A stretch of DNA of 64,000 nt from Paramarasmius palmivorus (taxonomy: Eukaryota; Basidiomycota; Agaricomycetes; Agaricales; Marasmiaceae). The position numbers and the translations under genes were made by a program. The notes under the pieces are model-generated. The model was given only the letters and a program-made list of their open reading frames with translations. It was not told the DNA's origin and made no database searches. The stretch spans positions 558,001-622,000 of the forward strand of contig JAYKXP010000023.1 in assembly GCA_037176845.1 (NCBI GenBank), read 5' to 3'. This document shows, piece by piece, positions 1 through 8,699 of this stretch; position 1 is the stretch's first letter, and each line of letters starts with the position of its first letter.

Positions 1-1
1 T

Positions 2-1258
2 CGACATTCTCCGCCAGGACGGTGAAAGCTTGAAGGCTGACTTAGCTCATCTTCAGTTAACCGAAGCCGATCTTGACAGGTACTTTGATGACGAAGCCAA
101 GCACATGAGAGAACTGGGCCGGGAGACTGATGAAGATCTGCATGCCATCGCGTATGTTGAGTTATTGATCAAACACCGGGACGTCAAGTAAGTGACCAGT
201 ATTTTTAGCTATCACGTCTAACTTCGATACAGCGCTGCTGTTGAGGCTGCCGATTCGAAGTTCCGGATGCAAATTCCAAAGGACTATCAATTCATTGCAC
301 CTGACAAGTCATACAGCCAGGAACTTTCGCAAACTCGCAAATTGGAAACTCAACGCAAGGTTCTAACCGAGGAACGCGCGCGCCTGTCATTTGAAATTGC
401 TAACATGGAAGATGCGATGAACATTCCGCAACGTTGGGAACCGTCATCCAAGGAATATCAAGCCACACTCAAGTACATGAAGGAGTGCCAATATCGTCGT
501 AAACTGGAGCACCTTCAGAAGCTTGTAGTTTGGCGACTGTTCGAGCTTCACAAGATGAACGTTTCGCAGACAGGTACGTACTGATAACACTGCAACGCAA
601 ATCAAATCTCACCCACGTGGCAGGGTATCGCATGCGATCACACATTGCCAAGGCCTTGCAACGTCGTTCGAAGGCAATTCGCAAAGCCGTTGCAGCGTAC
701 AACACCGCAGCAAAGGACATCGGTCGGCCTACACTTGACTGGAACCAGGTTACACACTACACGTTCCTCGACCAGTTCAACATTCTCCGTGACACCCGAC
801 ACGCAGTCTTCGATAAGGCGTGGGCCAAGCCTGTCATTCGGAATTTGATGAAGAGGTACCGCCGCGTTACCCGGGCTCAAGAGGAAGTTTTCCGCCTAAA
901 TGTTGAAGTTCGACGCCTTCACACAGCCGTCGTCGATGAGAATCAGCGATTCCCCACGATCTTGAAAGGCTGCGAAGGTACAGCAATATACGGCGCAGTG
1001 AATGAATATATTCAGCGGCGGAAAGCGGTGAATCGCATTTTGCTTGAGCGTGTTAATGACATCTACGAGTTGGACGGATTCACTGGCAATCGCGGTCCCG
1101 GACGCCGTAACGGAGCTTCTGATGCTCTTGATGAAGAGATGAGGGCACCGTTAGATCCGGACGTTACAGCGGTCCCAGAGCTTGATGATTCTGAGGGCGA
1201 TGATGACTTTGAAGATGAAGTTGGGCGTGTAGTAGATTTTATGTCTGCTGTACTATAG
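2..1258 (+). CDS. KDZ-family transposase, C-terminal part (5' truncated by window edge)
   Basis: The reading frame is open from the window edge, so the N-terminal part and catalytic core lie outside. Exons are 2-187, 233-573 and 624-1258; the introns (188-232, 574-623) have GTAAGT/GTACGT donors and CAG acceptors and keep the frame. The protein shows the helical, Arg/Lys-rich tail typical of mushroom KDZ (Kyakuja-Dileera-Zisupton) transposases, including a segment around LDWNQVTHYTFLDQFNILRD and a following RR-rich region, then an acidic end (DDSEGDDDFEDE). KDZ enzymes move large DNA transposons and are abundant in Agaricomycetes. The next genes (accessory, TET/JBP, two unknown) fit cargo of such an element. 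Family assignment rests on remembered features of the C-terminal region, so it is good but not proven; the DDE catalytic residues cannot be checked here. Confidence 0.75.
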
Positions 1259-1290
1259 TCAATGTAGTTGGGATACATATGACACTCAAT

Positions 1291-2096
1291 CTAAGATGTG
1301 TATTCAAATGCCTCAGGCCCTGTCACTCCGTCCACCCAAGCTCTCCATAACTGCTTCTGGCATCCCAATCTGTTGGTCATGTAAAATAGATGCATCGTCC
1401 CATTTCCTGCAACTTTTTGAAGCTCGTCAATGCCATCAGTGATTCGGTTCAAGCGAACGAGAAGTTTCAAGCCTTCCGTGTAGTCAGGGTGTCGTGGGTT
1501 GTACTCTCGACCGATGGTTTCCAAGAGGAGCTCCATCTTATTCCGCATAGCATGAAACTCGGCGAAGGGTTCCTTCAATGGAGAGACGGACTTCCGATCC
1601 CACACGAACAGTTTTCGGCAGATTGAATCAAAGTATTGGGACACGCAATTGTCGGTAAAGTTGTTCAGGTGGTTCTCGACATTACGGGCCATGATGACGG
1701 GGTCACTAATTGGTATGGTGAGGATAGATTAGAGATATCAGACAAGTATAGACGCACCTGCGGTGTTCCTGCCGCTTTGCTGCATGCAAGCTCGCAGCTC
1801 GACTCTCCTGTTGTTCTTCAATACGCTCCCGTCGTGCCTCTAGTCGATTTTGCTGCCTGTGATTGAAATATAAATGTCATTGATCAAGCCATTAGGTAGG
1901 CAGCGTACTGGTTTTCTTTTAATCGCACTCGATAAGCGCATTTTTTAGCTTTTATAGCTTCCCTGTTTCTAGTCCGATAGTCAAAATCAAGGATAGTTAT
2001 CAGACGTTTGACTCACTTTTGGTAGTATTTAGCAGCCTTGAGACGTGCAGCATCAAGTTGCTGCTGCTTGGTAGTGTAACGTTTTCGGCGAGGCAT
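1291..2096 (-). CDS. Small basic-region protein, probable KDZ-element accessory gene
   Basis: Four exons on the minus strand (2096-2017, 1968-1909, 1856-1758, 1705-1291) add up to exactly 218 codons including the stop. The protein begins MPRRKRYTTKQQQLDAARLK, and residues 1-80 are very rich in Arg, Lys and Gln with a strongly helical, bZIP-like basic look (KAKKCAYRVRLKENQ, then RRERIEEQQESR). Residues 80-217 form a globular helical segment (NVENHLNNFTDNCVSQYFDS; GREYNPRHPDYTEGL) that I do not recognise. The N-terminus suggests nucleic-acid binding, and the tail-to-tail position 32 bases from the KDZ transposase suggests an element-borne accessory factor; both are inferences. All introns are canonical and no internal stop is seen, so the gene appears intact. 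Confidence 0.65.
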
Positions 2097-2591
2097 AAGC
2101 GACAAATAGGCGCCGGTCGTGTCTGTGGTCGAAGGACGAGTATCAAGCAATGTTTCATTTTTGTCTTAACCTTCTCCTCCTATAACTCGATGAAAGCCGT
2201 TATTCCAATATTAGGTATGAGGAATATTGAATACAGAAGGTGTGGGTGCAACTCGGTTGTATATGAATCTCTGCTAGTGCTCTTGGGCCTTAACGTTGTA
2301 CGGAAATCGGTGGTCAAGGTGTTCTACCAAGTGTGCGTCCTCACCTTTTCAATTTTCACCATTCTTATATATGATGCTCTTATAGTATCTAAGGATATAC
2401 TGAACACGGGATTCTGCTTCATTTCGAATGGGAACGGAGATATTCAACATTTATTGTACCGCCGCGACCTGAGATGACTCTCAGGCTTGAATACAAGTTT
2501 ATATGTACACCACTTCATCCAGAATCATTACTACAAAACAACGGCGCAGTGTTCAACTGAGATTGTGATACAGTACAGTGCTTCAAGATAT
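2097..2591. other. Intergenic, no gene recognised
   Basis: This stretch lies between the start of the small basic-region gene and the stop of the TET/JBP gene. It is AT-rich and has one plus-strand open frame (2019-2477) that overlaps the neighbouring gene's first exon antisense and shows no protein-like composition. It presumably holds the upstream region of the 2096 gene and the 3' untranslated region of the 4089-2592 gene. I see no repeat or RNA. Confidence 0.4.
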
Positions 2592-4089
2592 TTACAACGA
2601 CAGTGCCCTTAGCTCTTCAATTGTAGATAACAGTCCGAGGCCCATTCTCCACCGTTTCAACCTCCTTGATTCATCGGCTAATGCCTGAGCCTTCGAACGT
2701 TTAGATTCATATTTTTTTTGAGTCGTAAATCGTTGATCTACCCATCGGAAAAGACCACCTGCAGTGAATTGCGTGAACGAGTAACGCTTTTCGTTCAGCT
2801 GGATTGGTGTATTACCATGGCAGCAAACGGCAGACGGAAGTGCAATCATCGAGCCTGAAGGGAATCGTATCACCTTCTTTTGATTGGGGAGTACAAGGTG
2901 CCCTCCACGGTCGGCGTCGAAGTCACCAAATGCAAAGATGAGACACAAGGAGAAGGGCAGGTTTCCGCTGTCGTAATGAGCCCTGCAAACGGTCTGTGGT
3001 CCGAAGTTGAACGCAGCAGCGGCCATGACACTATTTTTGAAAGGAAGTTGAAGCTTTCCGTATTTCCCGAGCAGTAGAGTGATATTATCATTGAGAAAAC
3101 GCCACAGTCGCGGAACCCAGGTCTTCATCCAACCTTCACAAAGATCAACGATCAATTAATTGATGAGGCACCGACGGACATACCTGTACCGAATCCCGAC
3201 ATATGATGAAACGCCGAGTGATTTGTTAGGCGGTGAAGTACTGCGGCATTAGCCGCGTTCGCCGAAAGATTCAGGGGTTTCTGGATAAGATGTCAATCAC
3301 TTTGCTGCAGGGCATAAGTATATACATACTTCTTGTCCACCACCAATAGATATACCTGTCGATAGCTGCCTAAATTTCTGTCCCATCGAGCGGCCGTTCG
3401 TATCTTCTACAGGAAAGGAACAGTTTCCGCGTTCTTTTTCTAAGGCCTCCGAAGCCGCATCCATCATCTGTCGCCAACGTTTGTCGCCGGGTGTCTTGAC
3501 TAGATAAACAAAAGCAATTCCATCTTCATCCACCAATGGAATAGTGCAACTACAGTGAAATAATTCAATGATAATAAGGAGGTGATATAAACGCCACTTA
3601 CTCGCCGCGCCAATCGACATACTCATACTTGTATTTACCGTTTGGATTGGTAAGCTCCTCTTTGGTACGAGGATGACCCTCTGTGTCAAGGCCGCTAACG
3701 TTGAGCCCTACCCAACCTGAGCGAGCAACGGGAGCGTTCCGCTGTAGGGAGAACGTGTCCGTGTGGATGGCTTCACCACGGGCGATTTGACTTGCTAGTG
3801 TTGCTGGCCGTGGTGGGATGTCTGAGGCGCTCTTGCATGCTTCGGCTTGGACTGTACCTTGCTTGGACAACCACTTCTCATGGCGTTTCCTGGAACGGTT
3901 TCGTTTACTGGAAACCTTGCAACGTGCTATTTGCTTGGCCCGTCGCGAGGTGGCACCGTCATCTGGAGAGATTTCGTCGATTGCGTCCAACTGACAGTCA
4001 ACATCATTTGATATTTGTGGCGAGGCCATAACCTTCCAAAGATCGCCGCCGAACCGAAAGCCAGGTGAATGCAGAGGGCTTGGCGCCAT
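2592..4089 (-). CDS. TET/JBP-family 2-oxoglutarate/Fe(II)-dependent dioxygenase
   Basis: Four exons (4089-3602, 3549-3330, 3280-3184, 3133-2592) give 448 residues with every phase matching. The double-stranded beta-helix carries the expected metal and co-substrate residues: His321 and Asp323 (CRAHYDSGN), distal His374 (AVCCHGNTPI) and Arg385 (EKRYSFTQF), with the GGHLVLPNQ strand between them. The segment before the core (GGGQE, PLNLSANAAN, then GFGTGW) matches the layout of fungal TET/JBP proteins. Residues 1-110 are basic and disordered. Members of this family oxidise 5-methylcytosine, or related bases, in DNA; fungal copies are expanded in mushrooms and associated with KDZ transposons, which fits the KDZ gene 1.3 kb away. 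The start was chosen at MAPSPLHSPG; an in-frame ATG at 4194 would add a hydrophobic stretch that looks non-coding. Substrate specificity is not readable from sequence. Confidence 0.85.
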
Positions 4090-4464
4090 GGTACCTACGT
4101 GTGGTAAGTTGCAAGCTTTAAAAAAATACGAGTAAAGCAGTAACACAAGCCAACCCACGACAACAAAACACGCGAGACCTTCATTCCATCGCATTCCCTA
4201 TGGCAGAGTATGCGAGGTCCAGCTTCGACTGCGTGTTTTAGTGTCGTGGGGGGAAGGAATCGTTGTATTATACGTGTAAAAGGGAAAATTACTCACCGCT
4301 CTGTAGTGTCGTTGTTGTGGTCGAAGACAAGAAATAAGCTCGCAAGCCTCACGAAGTCATGCCACTAGTTGACGTGACGTTAAGGAACGGCAAACGCCGT
4401 TCGGCAGGTGAGCGCCTTGATAAGATCGTGATATCAAACCACTGATTTTTCAAGTTCAACAATC

Positions 4465-5693
4465 ATGTCCGCTGCTCGCTCTCCTGCCCCCGGCTACTGT
4501 CCTCCCAAAAAATGGGTGAAGCTAGAGGGCTCCAGATTATCCGACGTGTTCGCGATGCCGTAGGGTTTTTGTCCGACCGTGGTTTACTCTCACTGATTCA
4601 TCTCTTACAGTCCGTGGCGCAAAGGTGGTATGCGGGCCAACCCGTTTCCGTTGGTGATACATTGCCAGACAGAGGACGACGCTCAATTCATCAAGGATCG
4701 ACTTGGACCATGGGTCGACAGCCTTGTAGAGCTCTATCCTGTGCTCTCGAACACGACGGCGCTACAAAGTCTACAGGAACATGAAGACTATCATACTATC
4801 TGCGAAAGATTGAACCGTCCCAACGGGTTCTTTTTCGATGTAAGGCTAGGTAAAAACTCTGGTGTGTTTTGTAGCAGGTACGTCGCATATCTACTCTTTC
4901 GTTATCTACTCTAACCAAAATTATAGCGTGCCTGCATTTCAATCGATCAACTCCTCGCGAAGCAATGCCTTTCGACGAGCTTTTATCTTTCGATCATTTG
5001 AAGACGCTCTCCTCTCGAACATTGGCTCCCTTCCCGACCCGGTTAATGTCTATCTCGACTACAACCCATTAGAAATGGGGGAGACCGTAGCTCGTGAACA
5101 TCAGAGACGTATAGTAAATGCCGAGCGTGGTCGACAATCGCAATCCACTCCGTCCACTCCATCTGTTAGTCGCACGTGTGCAGACTCTCGAGACGCCGAG
5201 GCGACACCACCTGCCTACAATCCAGCACCTCCCTCAGCAATAGAGCAGGCTGTTGCTCGTAGGACCGATCCTTCGGTTCGTCCATCAACTCCTTCACGTG
5301 GGTCGCGGGCCGACAGGTCACAAATTCAAGTGGAAAACCCTTCAGCCGGTGGTAACACCTTCAACATCAGGGTAGCAACAACGCAGGGTTTCCAAATGGT
5401 TCTAAGTAAGTGTTTTGATTAGTTACATACACGCGGCACTGTTTTCTGACGTGGAATTGTTAGCATCTCCAGCTACCCGCAGCCAGGATCGTGCCGATCG
5501 AGATGACGATGTAGCAATGATTTATCTCAGAGCTCATCGCAAGTGTGGCTGGTATCAAAAAAGCCAGATCCCTGACCTGCGTCGTCTACTCCTCGAGTCA
5601 TCCAAGGACGGTTGGGTTGAAGAAGCGGTCTTCTCCCGCTATGATTTTCCATATGACGCGGCATTGTACCTTTGGGATATTACTCATGCGTAG
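4465..5693 (+). CDS. Unknown mushroom-specific protein, possible RNase H1-N-like segment
   Basis: Four exons (4465-4559, 4611-4877, 4927-5405, 5464-5693) total 357 codons with the stop and all phases fit. The N-terminus (MSAARSPAPGYCPPKKWVKL) leads into a globular region with PWRKGGMRANPF and CQTEDDAQFIKDRLGPWV. The segment around residues 110-150 (FDVRLGKNSGVFCS, then RRAFIFRSFEDALL) vaguely recalls the small V..G...GVF...F.SFEDAL pattern of RNase H1 N-terminal hybrid-binding domains; this is a weak suggestion only. Residues 170-270 are disordered and Pro/Ser-rich, and the end is again globular (AMIYLRAHRKCGWYQKSQ, ALYLWDITHA). It is divergent from the TET/JBP gene, so the two could share a 375-base promoter region. 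I infer cargo of the KDZ element; function unknown. Confidence 0.6.
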
Positions 5694-5849
5694 ACGTTAC
5701 AATAATTTGATTTTGATTTCTTGTAAAATAAAATTATTATCCTATCAAATCAACATCATGGTGCAATCTACATAGTCCGAAAATTTCGGCAGCTGTGGCT
5801 GTCGGTATCGAGTCGGTATCCTTGCTTTTCCTCTGCCTCTCCCTCTGCC

Positions 5850-7390
5850 ATGGTGCGACTCAGGTCAAACAATGACCGACTTCTTAGCTCTACGCGTAGA
5901 GTCGGCACTACTACACGTAAACCATGGCGCCGACGTACTAAACGCGTGCGCCCCAAGTTAACGAAGGCACAGAAACGCGACAACAAGAAGAAACGGGAGG
6001 ACGACTTGGAAGAATACCAGGGAAAGATAGCTACTCTACGCAGTTCGATTGTCGAAAAGGCTCAAGAAATCAACGCCGAGGACAGTTCACGTTCCGTCGA
6101 CCGTATCATTGACGACGTCTACCAGACCCACCGGCTGAAGAACAAGAAAACTGCTAGCCAGTTCAATGCGTTCACGAAGATGGAGCTGAAGGCAATCAAT
6201 GACGGTCCGAGCTTTCTACCTGAGATGTTTAACTTGGTCTAATAATTGCCTTTTAGCTTTACCCGAGGGCGAGCCTAAGAAGAAGGCCAACGAGTGCATG
6301 AAGGAGATTTCGCTCAAATGGAATGCAATTCCGATTGAAGACCGTGAGGCGCTCACAGCGGGCACATTGAAGGAGATATTGGAGAATAGAAAAAATAGAG
6401 AGGTGGGGTCTCACAATTCTGCACTGAGCGCGTTTCACGACACGCGTACTTGCATTGACGACGTGAAAGACAAGGTGTGTTCTGAATAAATAATACTCTC
6501 AGCAGGCGCTAATGGAATCAACTTGAAGCTTACCCGTCTTAATGCTCGTACTGGAGACGAGAGTGTCCTTCTCGTGTCTCGTTCATCATCGTCCCACTAC
6601 AACAAACCTATGGTTTTTGGAACCAGCGAACGAGCCTTAGAGTTCTTCAATCTCGTCTTCGAGCTTCCGGTTGAGGAGCTTGCGCAACGGTATGAAGGCT
6701 ATACAATTGCAGGCGTGGGCCAGGTTGCTCGCACGGCTGGTCAGAAGCTTCTTGAGGCCAAAAGTAACTTGAAGAGGCTTATTTTCAGGAAACTCGGTGC
6801 GTACCCATCCACGTTAGAATGTTGAATACCTAATATTTTACTCCATAGAGGAAGCGGCGAGCCCGACGAAGGTGGGACGGATGTTTTACGTCAATTTTGA
6901 GGAACATATCACCCTCAAATATCGCGTCACGCTGCTGAACTGGCCCCTTCCGAAGTTCTGCTCTCCGAGCGTGATGACAACCACTGTTGAAGTCGAGACT
7001 GTGATGCAGTGCTTCACGACAGGGACGACGAAATTTTATAAGATGACTCTTGATGAGTTTACGAAGTGGAAAGAAGGTTATCTAGCCGGGAAGATCAATC
7101 AGCAGCTTGGAGACGCCAATCAATCACCTGTGCAGCCTCAGGAACAAGGTCCATCCGACGAAGCTCCGGACCCAACTCCTGGTCCAAGTCGTGTGGAAGA
7201 CAGCCTATCCAATCCATCCCCAGATCAAGCCCAACAGCCTTCATTGCAGTCGCCTGTTTGTACCCAGCCGCAGAGTCGCTTTGTGAATTCCATGGCAGTG
7301 ACTGGGTCTGATGGTTCTGTCCTCCGGATCGCGGCAAAGCCAAGACGTCAACGCAAGGACAAGGGTCAACCTCGCAAAAAAAGTAGGTGA
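5850..7390 (+). CDS. Unknown mushroom-expanded protein with HMG-box-like segment
   Basis: Exons 5850-6204, 6257-6474, 6529-6796 and 6849-7390 sum to 461 codons with the stop. The third exon's acceptor was set at 6528 because only that keeps the frame into LTRLNARTGDES, and CTAAT lies at branch-point distance. Residues 1-75 are basic then helical. Residues 105-170 (NAFTKMELKAINDALPEG, then KKKANECMKEISLKWNAI) look like a divergent HMG box. The middle (SAFHDTRTCIDDV; ARTGDESVLLVSR; FGTSERALEFFNLVFEL) and later part (VGRMFYVNFEEHI, NWPLPKFCSPS) match a family I know as uncharacterised and widely repeated in Agaricomycetes. The tail is Pro/Gln-rich and ends in a basic KPRRQRKDKGQPRKK cluster, plausibly a nuclear signal. 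A further intron near 7383 giving a slightly different C-terminus is possible. Confidence 0.65.
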
Positions 7391-8699
7391 CCCCTCACTC
7401 ATTCCCTCACCACATGTCTTACTGGCATTTAGATGTTCAGGTCGGCGGTACTGCTTAGTAGAACTAGAAAATAGGATAGTAATATGTCTATTCAATATAT
7501 TCAATGAGCTGGAATTACACTTGATTTATGATATGCCTACAAAACAGACGGTTCAAGACGGAACTTAGGGAATGAGGACGAGGGGCATCAATTGACAGGT
7601 CAGAGGGAAAGGAACAAGCAAAGTCCCACGCGAGATTTTTTTTTTTGGCCGTGACATTGAACCGATGTGTGACTAGACTCAGAGTGATGGCGGGGGGATG
7701 GTCTAGACGCCTTCCCAAAATGAAAACGGCGGCTAGCGCTGGGGCGGGATGGACGGGACGACTGCGTAATCGAATAATGTCAGATACGAAAAGGGAGGAG
7801 TGACTTTGATGGACGGACTCACAGATTTGGGTTGTTTTTGATGGGCTCAGGCTGTTTCCCGAAAAGTGAAAAGTTGAATTATTGAAGGATTTTTTCGCAG
7901 GTGTCGGCCAAACGAGTTTTAGGGCTCTAGCCCTGGTGCTACCCCGGGTGAGATCCAGGCTTCTACCCCGGAGAGTTCGTGATGTTGAGGTGCACCTCCC
8001 GACGCCTGAGTGCAACTGCGCTCGATGTTCAACAAGACGTGCTCATCGTTCCACTTCATGCCTCCCGAGCCGTGTTGGACCCGTGCTTAGACCCTGCTGC
8101 ATGATAATATGTAACCAATTTCATTGTATATGCTATTCAAGCTGCACTTTGTGCTTCTACTGACTATTTCTGTCGGTATCAACCTTCATGAAGACACCAA
8201 GGGGCGGGAAGGGTGCACGAGAAGGCGCATTCTGGAAAGGCTTAATAAGGCAATGCTCCGGGGTCTAGAGTCAAGACTCCGCAGGGCTCCGTCCACATCA
8301 TTGGTCATGTTTGGTTGATTACTATCTATGGTAGGTACAGCCACAAAATCCGGAATCGGATTTCGCTATCAAACAGAGCCTAACGCGTATGCATCAACTT
8401 CCTGCACAGGGTGTGTATAATCTGTGTACGGGCGCCTTACGTTCTCGATGAAAGCATTTATTATTGACATTCGTTTGAGAGATGTACGAACATCTAATGT
8501 GGGTTTTATCAATTCAAACCTATCCTACATCTGAATACGCTGGAGGCAAATGCAGTGGATGGTTAGAGTCTCCGAGAGACCCGGAAGTAACAGGGTCACT
8601 AATAATTAAGGCATATGAGAACGTTTAGTAGAAATCTTCCCAAACATAGTCATTCTAGCTGTCGTTACATCTGTCGAGAGTGTGAAAGGATGAGTAATA
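7391..8699. other. Gene-poor stretch right of the KDZ/TET island
   Basis: No gene is recognised. A 166-codon minus-strand open frame (7515-8015) has biased Ser/Arg composition and no domain resemblance. The stretch at 7900-8100 is GC-rich with short internal repeats of the type GCTACCCCGGG/TCTACCCCGGA, which might be part of an old element. The right boundary of the transposon should lie here if the island is a single element, but I could not identify a terminal inverted repeat by eye. Confidence 0.3.

Follow-up and report, generated by a model that had tools for sequence, protein, structure and literature searches.

A complete KDZ transposon with a TET-like dioxygenase and accessory genes, inserted in a Tourist-type MITE of Paramarasmius palmivorus

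Introduction

Fungal transposons that bear TET genes have been described as associations of transposase with TET and as consensus reconstructions (PMC12730594). According to the main text of that paper, Kyakuja is the kind of TET+ KDZ element with the widest record in Agaricomycetes; it makes 7-bp duplications and has no terminal inverted repeats (TIRs). TET+ Zisupton elements are described there from Auriculariales and Agaricus bisporus, the latter being the only host given within Agaricales. Here, we describe a complete KDZ DNA transposon of 11,328 bp in the mushroom Paramarasmius palmivorus, a single KDZ-TET copy that is delimited to the base and for which empty sites are present in the genome. 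The window, a stretch of 64,000 nucleotides (contig C23, JAYKXP010000023.1, positions 558001–622000), holds 7,992 bp of this element, and genome searches were run over the whole 68.3-Mb P. palmivorus assembly of 393 contigs. The original prediction for this DNA proposed a KDZ gene island at positions 1–7390 and took the association of KDZ elements with TET/JBP genes as established knowledge, in agreement with the TET-bearing KDZ transposons already reported (PMC12730594).

We put the probability of our overall reading at about 0.7. It takes together a complete KDZ cut-and-paste transposon, its insertion as a unit into a Tourist-type miniature inverted-repeat transposable element (MITE), and the roles proposed below for its genes. 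In what follows, contigs are numbered C and individual stretches of the assembly L; L009 is the 10 kb directly upstream of the window.

Results

The first 3,336 bp of the KDZ element precede the window (L009:6665–10000, equal to C23:554665–558000), and the remainder runs to window base 7992. Self-comparison pairs L009:6665–7039 with window 7992–7617, and 374 of the 376 alignment columns are identical. The first bases are CACCTCAACATC and the last GATGTTGAGGTG, giving CA..TG termini, and a perfect 8-bp target duplication, CACCTCCC, flanks the element on both sides. The surrounding sequence is a MITE of about 561 bp, whose 139-bp arms, starting GGCTCTGTTTGATAGC, form inverted repeats outside the TIRs (95% over 138 bp). 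When window 7600–8382 was searched against the genome, seven further MITE copies came up without the insert (L074–L080), along with short, incomplete matches on C147 and C16; counting the interrupted one, the genome holds at least eight copies. Once the element and one CACCTCCC are removed, the remainder aligns end to end with all seven other copies at about 90–97% identity; the identical 8 bp are present once in six of the seven. Because excision restores a sequence matching the uninterrupted copies, the KDZ element entered the Tourist-type MITE as a single unit. The element thus has defined ends, a target duplication, and an empty site, along with a KDZ transposase domain. Coordinates within the window are collected in Table 1.

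The outer arms starting GGCTCTGTTTGATAGC were considered as ends of the KDZ element and rejected, as seven MITE copies bear the same arms without an insert. A related proposal is that the outer Tourist/Harbinger arms bound the mobile unit, in which case the locus would be a composite Harbinger element instead of a KDZ transposon. The arms are indeed inverted repeats with TAA on both sides. However, seven uninterrupted copies of about 561 bp lack the insert, and the inner ends coincide precisely with the 8-bp duplication. Termini of the inner kind are also present at C14, C167, and C178, where no MITE match accompanies them, and the 7600–8382 search showed no second unit of 11.9 kb that combined MITE arms with a 3-bp duplication. 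We regard a composite Harbinger element as highly improbable. Among the seven other MITE copies, six have TTA, TAA, or TCA on both sides, as the interrupted copy has TAA. Such 3-bp flanks fit Tourist/Harbinger MITEs, the family to which we presume this one belongs.

Table 1. Features of the KDZ element and its host MITE within the window
Feature	Position	Strand	Details	Basis
Complete KDZ transposon, window portion	1..7992	+	7,992 of 11,328 bp	TIRs, 8-bp duplication, seven empty sites
KDZ transposase, 3' part	1..1258	+	last three of eight exons: ..-187, 233-573, 624-1258	Pfam KDZ PF18758, splice model
gA, basic N-terminal region	1291..2096	-	217 aa; exons 2096-2017, 1968-1909, 1856-1758, 1705-1291	splice model, equal to VNI00_007302
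TET-like 2-oxoglutarate-Fe(II) dioxygenase (likely TET/JBP kind)	2592..4089	-	448 aa; exons 4089-3602, 3549-3330, 3280-3184, 3133-2592	splice model, motif residues
gC, hybrid-binding-like (modest)	4465..5693	+	356 aa; exons 4465-4559, 4611-4877, 4927-5405, 5464-5693	splice model; equals annotated protein full length
gD, HMG-box-like (modest)	5850..7390	+	460 aa; exons 5850-6204, 6257-6474, 6529-6796, 6849-7390	splice model
Right TIR	7617..7992	-	376 bp, mate of L009:6665-7039	374/376 alignment columns identical
Right copy of CACCTCCC duplication	7993..8000	+	left copy L009:6657-6664	single copy in empty sites
Interrupted Tourist/Harbinger-type MITE, right part	7993..8382	+	left part L009:6495-6664	seven uninterrupted copies, ~90-97% alike

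Six genes make up the content of the element: g1, the KDZ transposase, gA, the TET-like dioxygenase, gC, and gD. All five gene pieces of the predicted island are present and lie inside one TIR-bounded element. The span given to that island was too small, as the element has a further 3,336 bp before the window, ends at base 7992, and includes a sixth gene, g1, which is encoded upstream of the window and specifies an acidic protein of 174 aa. Gene models are splice models in which all introns are GT-AG. The transposase model has eight exons and 1,014 codons from an ATG at L009:7857, the splice model itself beginning one codon later. Its KDZ domain matches PF18758 over profile positions 1–217 of 217 (E 1.5e-72), with the majority of the core domain upstream of the window.

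No internal stops are found in g1, gA, the dioxygenase, gC, or gD. The transposase frame is interrupted once, at codon 62, upstream of both the window and the KDZ domain; an in-frame ATG follows two codons past this stop, and in the C178 relative the frame is open at the same position. The statement that all genes were intact by frame therefore holds inside the window and fails for the transposase upstream of it. To move, this copy probably needs translation to re-initiate past the stop, or a transposase provided in trans.

The transposase and gA genes are convergent, with 32 bp between them. The annotated P. palmivorus proteins VNI00_007302, 007304, and 007305 are identical to gA and gC and near-identical to gD, respectively. 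A protein search of limited sensitivity with gA gave no match beyond the identical VNI00_007302 and none outside the species; diverged gA relatives are present in the same genome.

In the dioxygenase, the HxD...H iron triad and the 2-oxoglutarate arginine are intact (H321-Y-D323, H372, and R385), and the active-site residues are kept in 8 of 8 aligned family members, the element's own included. All eight also have Asn five residues past the first His (H+5), the position occupied by Gly331 in CcTet, Asn1387 in human TET2, Asp234 in NgTet1, and Asp350 in CMD1 (PMC11040006). By ungapped offset from HxD, the position of CcTet 331 corresponds to Asn and that of CcTet 337 to Cys. Compared with the AG type (Gly/Ser, Asp) and the PE type (HxE) in the main-text scheme of Kojima (PMC12730594), and with position 337 placed by offset only, the enzyme would fit neither. 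Pfam gives a weak PF13640 match (E 0.01; E 0.0027), found in 3 of the 8 members. No Pfam TET model (e.g. PF20515) matched the dioxygenase at E≤1 or the eight members at E≤10, and no PDB chain, those of CcTet, TET2, NgTet, and CMD1 included, was matched by sequence (E≤0.001) or profile (E≤10). By sequence, then, it is of the HxD kind and falls outside the TET models of Pfam. Assignment to the TET/JBP kind is likely, and is graded no higher because motif and context carry it, with no Pfam TET model and no TET structure matched. What had been predicted as a complete TET/JBP oxygenase thus has an open frame, the HxD...H...R site, and a KDZ context, and lacks a match to Pfam TET or to a solved TET structure.

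These mismatches, and the weak PF13640 hit, leave room for a different 2-oxoglutarate-Fe(II) enzyme, acting on RNA, protein, or N6-methyladenine and travelling with KDZ elements, in place of a DNA 5-methylcytosine oxidase. In keeping with that alternative, Pfam Tet-like PF20515 does match elsewhere in the genome, in four rows that all fall at loci other than those of the dioxygenase family. Against it stand the intact HxD...H...R site, the Asn shared at H+5 with human TET2 where CcTet has Gly (PMC11040006), and the genomic setting of the family: 65 of 93 dioxygenase loci have one of at least 145 listed KDZ loci no more than 10 kb away, which matches the known TET-KDZ association. We consider a non-5-methylcytosine enzyme unlikely, though a serious candidate. 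The family itself comprises 100 match rows in the genome, of which 7 were dropped before counting to leave at least 93 loci after merging (94 of 170 candidates scored). The four PF20515 rows (C10:711787, C16:62375, C157:93041, and C156:3768; L085–L087) are far fewer than these 93.

The dioxygenase and gC genes diverge from a 375-bp interval. An imperfect 20-bp inverted repeat, with 18 of 20 positions paired, lies in this promoter interval at window 4154–4250 and is a possible binding site; with up to 5 mismatches allowed, the element and its nearby flanks gave no second occurrence.

For gC, the predicted fold includes a segment like the RNase H1 hybrid-binding domain at about residues 102–154, and we judge the resemblance modest. 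Pfam PF01693 was not matched in gC or two homologues at E≤10. At the gC relatives on C145 and C89, a PF01693 domain lies some 0.3 kb upstream in the same orientation; once joined across an intron, it gives E 5.6e-10 and 3.2e-8. Searching the genome with PF01693 gave two rows, both on C5, and none at the gC relatives, where the intron splits the domain. Direct profile comparison of gC with the local RNase H1-N domains is weak (E 0.073). A protein search of limited sensitivity gave two gC matches outside P. palmivorus. The earlier suggestion of a possible hybrid-binding segment is thus borne out to a modest degree by the predicted fold and not by PF01693 in gC.

The models of gD suggest an HMG box at about residues 95–175 and a GTF2I-repeat-like fold at about 252–350. 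A piece of gD scores 14.5 bits for HMG_box where the curated Pfam cut-off is 25.4, and the best homologue piece reaches 21.3 bits for HMG_box_2 against a cut-off of 22.4. The predicted HMG-like character of this gene is therefore kept as modest: gD models as an HMG box and misses the curated threshold. The GTF2I repeat (PF02946) was found neither in the Pfam pieces of gD nor in the genome search, and its likeness lies in the fold only. Foldseek alone gave no match at E≤0.001 for gC or gD. The annotated gD has 466 aa through another 3' splice and equals our model except in the last residues. Seven protein matches to gD come from six other Agaricomycete species at 31–43% identity, five of them covering at least 97% of gD. 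In Arthromyces matolae, the protein P0006 may be a fusion of gD with a gC-like end; the match is weak (E 0.003–0.025) and is not used as proof of adjacency.

Relatives of the element are scattered through the genome. At the DNA level, the inner TIR is near-identical only at the window locus, with diverged matches at C178 (73%), C167 (76%), C1 (81%), and C14 (82%). The terminal 22-base pattern, with one mismatch allowed, occurs five times in the genome, two of these at the element itself, and its reversed control does not occur. On C14, a mini-element of 78 bp (L034:1501–1578, equal to C14:51915–51992) consists of nearly only the two KDZ element ends; its flanks TTATAAAC/TTATAAGC form an 8-bp duplication with 7 of 8 letters alike. 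The C178 remnant holds a TIR end, g1 (37%), and KDZ (49–66% over stretches of at least 45 residues) and stops where another repeat starts. The C167 remnant holds the KDZ end, gC, gD, and a TIR end, in that order, within about 1.5 kb. The DNA stretches of relatives on C78, C36, and C31 showed no likeness to the element's TIR. At C178 (L082, L028 region), a 944-bp sequence is present in two inverted copies, 97% alike, on either side of the KDZ gene (2677–3620 and 6301–7244 of a reversed 14.4-kb stretch), and one copy starts at the break in the KDZ match.

The related genes recur in each other's company. A listed KDZ or TET gene, or a fellow cargo gene, is no more than 10 kb away from 5 of 5 other gC loci, 4 of 4 for gD, 2 of 2 for g1, and 8 of 16 for gA, counts that are not independent of one another as the loci overlap. 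For listed KDZ genes alone, the figures are 3 of 5 (gC), 2 of 4 (gD), and 6 of 16 (gA). Listed KDZ loci with 10 kb to either side cover at most 4.4% of the genome, although probabilities drawn from such proximity are rough because repeats cluster and the KDZ list is incomplete (at least 145 of 178 reported matches, with five second-exon rows dropped). For the cargo genes, 10 gC rows were merged to 6 loci and 9 gD rows to 5, and 11 of 28 gA rows were dropped (3 window duplicates and 8 matching only the N-terminal ~47 residues).

Combinations and orders change from locus to locus. KDZ(+), TET(-), gD(+) recur in this order and orientation at the window locus, C78, and C36, with TET-gD in matching relation at C31. 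A strictly conserved order was considered and rejected: gC and gA are convergent at C89 and C145, gA and TET are convergent at C318 and C332, and KDZ and TET share one strand at C39 and C147. The exact five-gene order proposed to recur was found only at the window locus and nowhere else in genome searches with each gene. This counts against our reading, and it is what a chance grouping, a KDZ remnant beside unrelated host genes, would produce. A chance grouping was to be recognized by the absence of bracketing TIRs together with that of co-location elsewhere; instead, all of the genes lie between 376-bp TIRs and the two copies of CACCTCCC, and the seven empty sites already refute it. Genes related to these are also found repeatedly near KDZ or TET genes at other loci of the assembly. 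We give chance next to no probability.

Cargo and transposase do not appear to have moved in step. After C178, the nearest KDZ relatives among the matches listed have about 30–50% identity. For six of these (C3, C36, C78, C39, C92, and C147), the TET gene listed within 5 kb is only 34–38% identical to the element's dioxygenase. The eight closest TET relatives among the matches listed, at 47–52%, are at C332, C318, C182, C295, C244, C41, C33, and C348. Six of these eight have a listed KDZ within 10 kb, none of which is among the 56 KDZ protein search rows (48 of 102 candidates scored). At the two best, C332 and C318, gA adjoins TET. The comparison suggests that a gA-TET pair and the transposase have separate histories, a reading based on pairwise identity among the matches listed and not on a tree.

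The element has a ratio of observed to expected CpG of 1.02. The corresponding values are 0.29 for the C167 remnant (TpG 1.44, CpA 1.42) and 0.34–0.59 for the element-remnant stretches of C178, where the neighbouring stretch L084 has 0.85. Ten TET-linked loci (0.92–0.99) have higher ratios than five KDZ loci for which no TET is listed within 10 kb (0.57–0.88; Mann-Whitney one-sided P 0.0012). Locus L004 (0.86), whose TET match is 10.0 kb distant, was omitted from this comparison, as were gD/gA loci beside TET genes (L060 0.91, L061 0.85, L063 0.95, L069 0.92, and L071 0.95). The pattern fits cytosine-methylation decay from which TET-linked copies were spared or are younger, and we treat it as a lead and not as a test. 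Several points weigh against the stronger reading. The retention of CpG in the element and its loss in two decayed relatives, the one hint in the sequence of the DNA-modification-aware transposition system originally proposed, may reflect age alone; the five TET-less loci come from a KDZ group that is farther removed; L007 and L008, both among the ten TET-linked loci, resemble copies of each other; the loci compared are all best hits; and L061, a TET-linked gD locus outside the comparison, falls at 0.85 within the TET-less range. Methylation-decay-like CpG depletion (0.16–0.29) with TpG/CpA excess is also seen in L029 (C167), L068 (C178:63730–67296), and the flanks of L077 and L078.

Discussion

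The roles that we propose are given in order of falling confidence. The KDZ transposase would act on the element's TIRs in a cut-and-paste reaction. HMGB proteins bend or bridge ends in synapsis for other DDE recombinases, and the HMG-box-like gD could do the same for the ends of this element. The TET-like dioxygenase would oxidize 5-methylcytosine of the element and so lift the silencing of its genes. Least certain, gC might bind RNA:DNA hybrid or double-stranded RNA and keep transcription of the element open or steer the dioxygenase there. Four of the six proteins are placed in this way, with the acidic g1 and the basic gA outside the scheme. We infer from these assignments an anti-silencing role for the element's cargo. 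A more specific version is doubtful: a targeted module with a TET2-like Asn-type 5-methylcytosine oxidase, gC steering it by hybrid binding to transcribed element DNA, and an HMG/GTF2I-like gD coupling demethylation to transposition, with TET cassettes swapped between KDZ lineages.

It is also possible that the accessory genes are captured passengers and that the TIRs and transposase alone matter. Related loci hold varying subsets of the genes, and in searches of limited sensitivity gA has no relatives outside the species and gC has two matches there, all of which would suit passengers. Yet gD is matched across six other Agaricomycete species, mostly at near-full length, and gC, gD, g1, and half of the gA relatives lie near KDZ, TET, or one another. 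In addition, it is the five non-transposase frames that are open, whereas the transposase frame is interrupted. On balance, we find the passenger explanation rather unlikely and prefer a KDZ transposon whose cargo serves it. Such an element may be mobile DNA that brings its own anti-silencing kit, and its delimitation allows the TET-like enzyme and each accessory gene to be tested in transposition and methylation escape. If gC binds RNA:DNA hybrids, this would suggest a route by which a transposon could aim demethylation at itself.

In the literature on KDZ with HMG, TET, Marasmius, or hybrid binding, we found nothing beyond PMC12730594, PMC11040006, PMC8290104, and Iyer et al. 2014. No TET-bearing Agaricales KDZ element with long TIRs and 8-bp duplications was found there outside A. 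bisporus, nor was a dioxygenase of this type, a hybrid-binding-like cargo gene, gA, or g1, although the supplements of Kojima 2025 may hold such cases. The main text of PMC12730594 contains none of the terms HMG, RNase H, and accessory, and that of PMC8290104 lacks the word dioxygenase. The latter paper describes KDZ/Plavaka elements of Marasmius oreades, likewise a marasmioid host, and its main text places their TIR motifs in a supplementary figure.

By the main text of PMC12730594, the P. palmivorus element resembles TET+ Kyakuja in its KDZ-group transposase, CA..TG termini, TET/JBP-type dioxygenase, and mushroom host. It differs in that Kyakuja makes a 7-bp duplication and has no TIRs, whereas this element has 8 bp and TIRs of 376 bp. 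The Kyakuja AG enzymes have Gly/Ser at CcTet 331 and Asp at 337, where the P. palmivorus enzyme has Asn and, by offset, Cys. With Zisupton as described in general it shares an 8-bp duplication and TIRs, a likeness judged by the ends and not by transposase clade; Zisupton elements carry AG- and PE-type enzymes, and the PE motif is HxE as opposed to the HxD found here (PMC12730594, main text).

The gene set recalls a further kind of KDZ element. The abstract of Iyer et al. (2014, PNAS) reportedly states that several KDZ-TET/JBP elements encode additional proteins, including one with a divergent HMG domain. A KDZ transposase together with a TET/JBP enzyme and an HMG-domain protein is like the set that includes gD, and gD is probably of this already known kind, an HMG protein on a KDZ-TET element.

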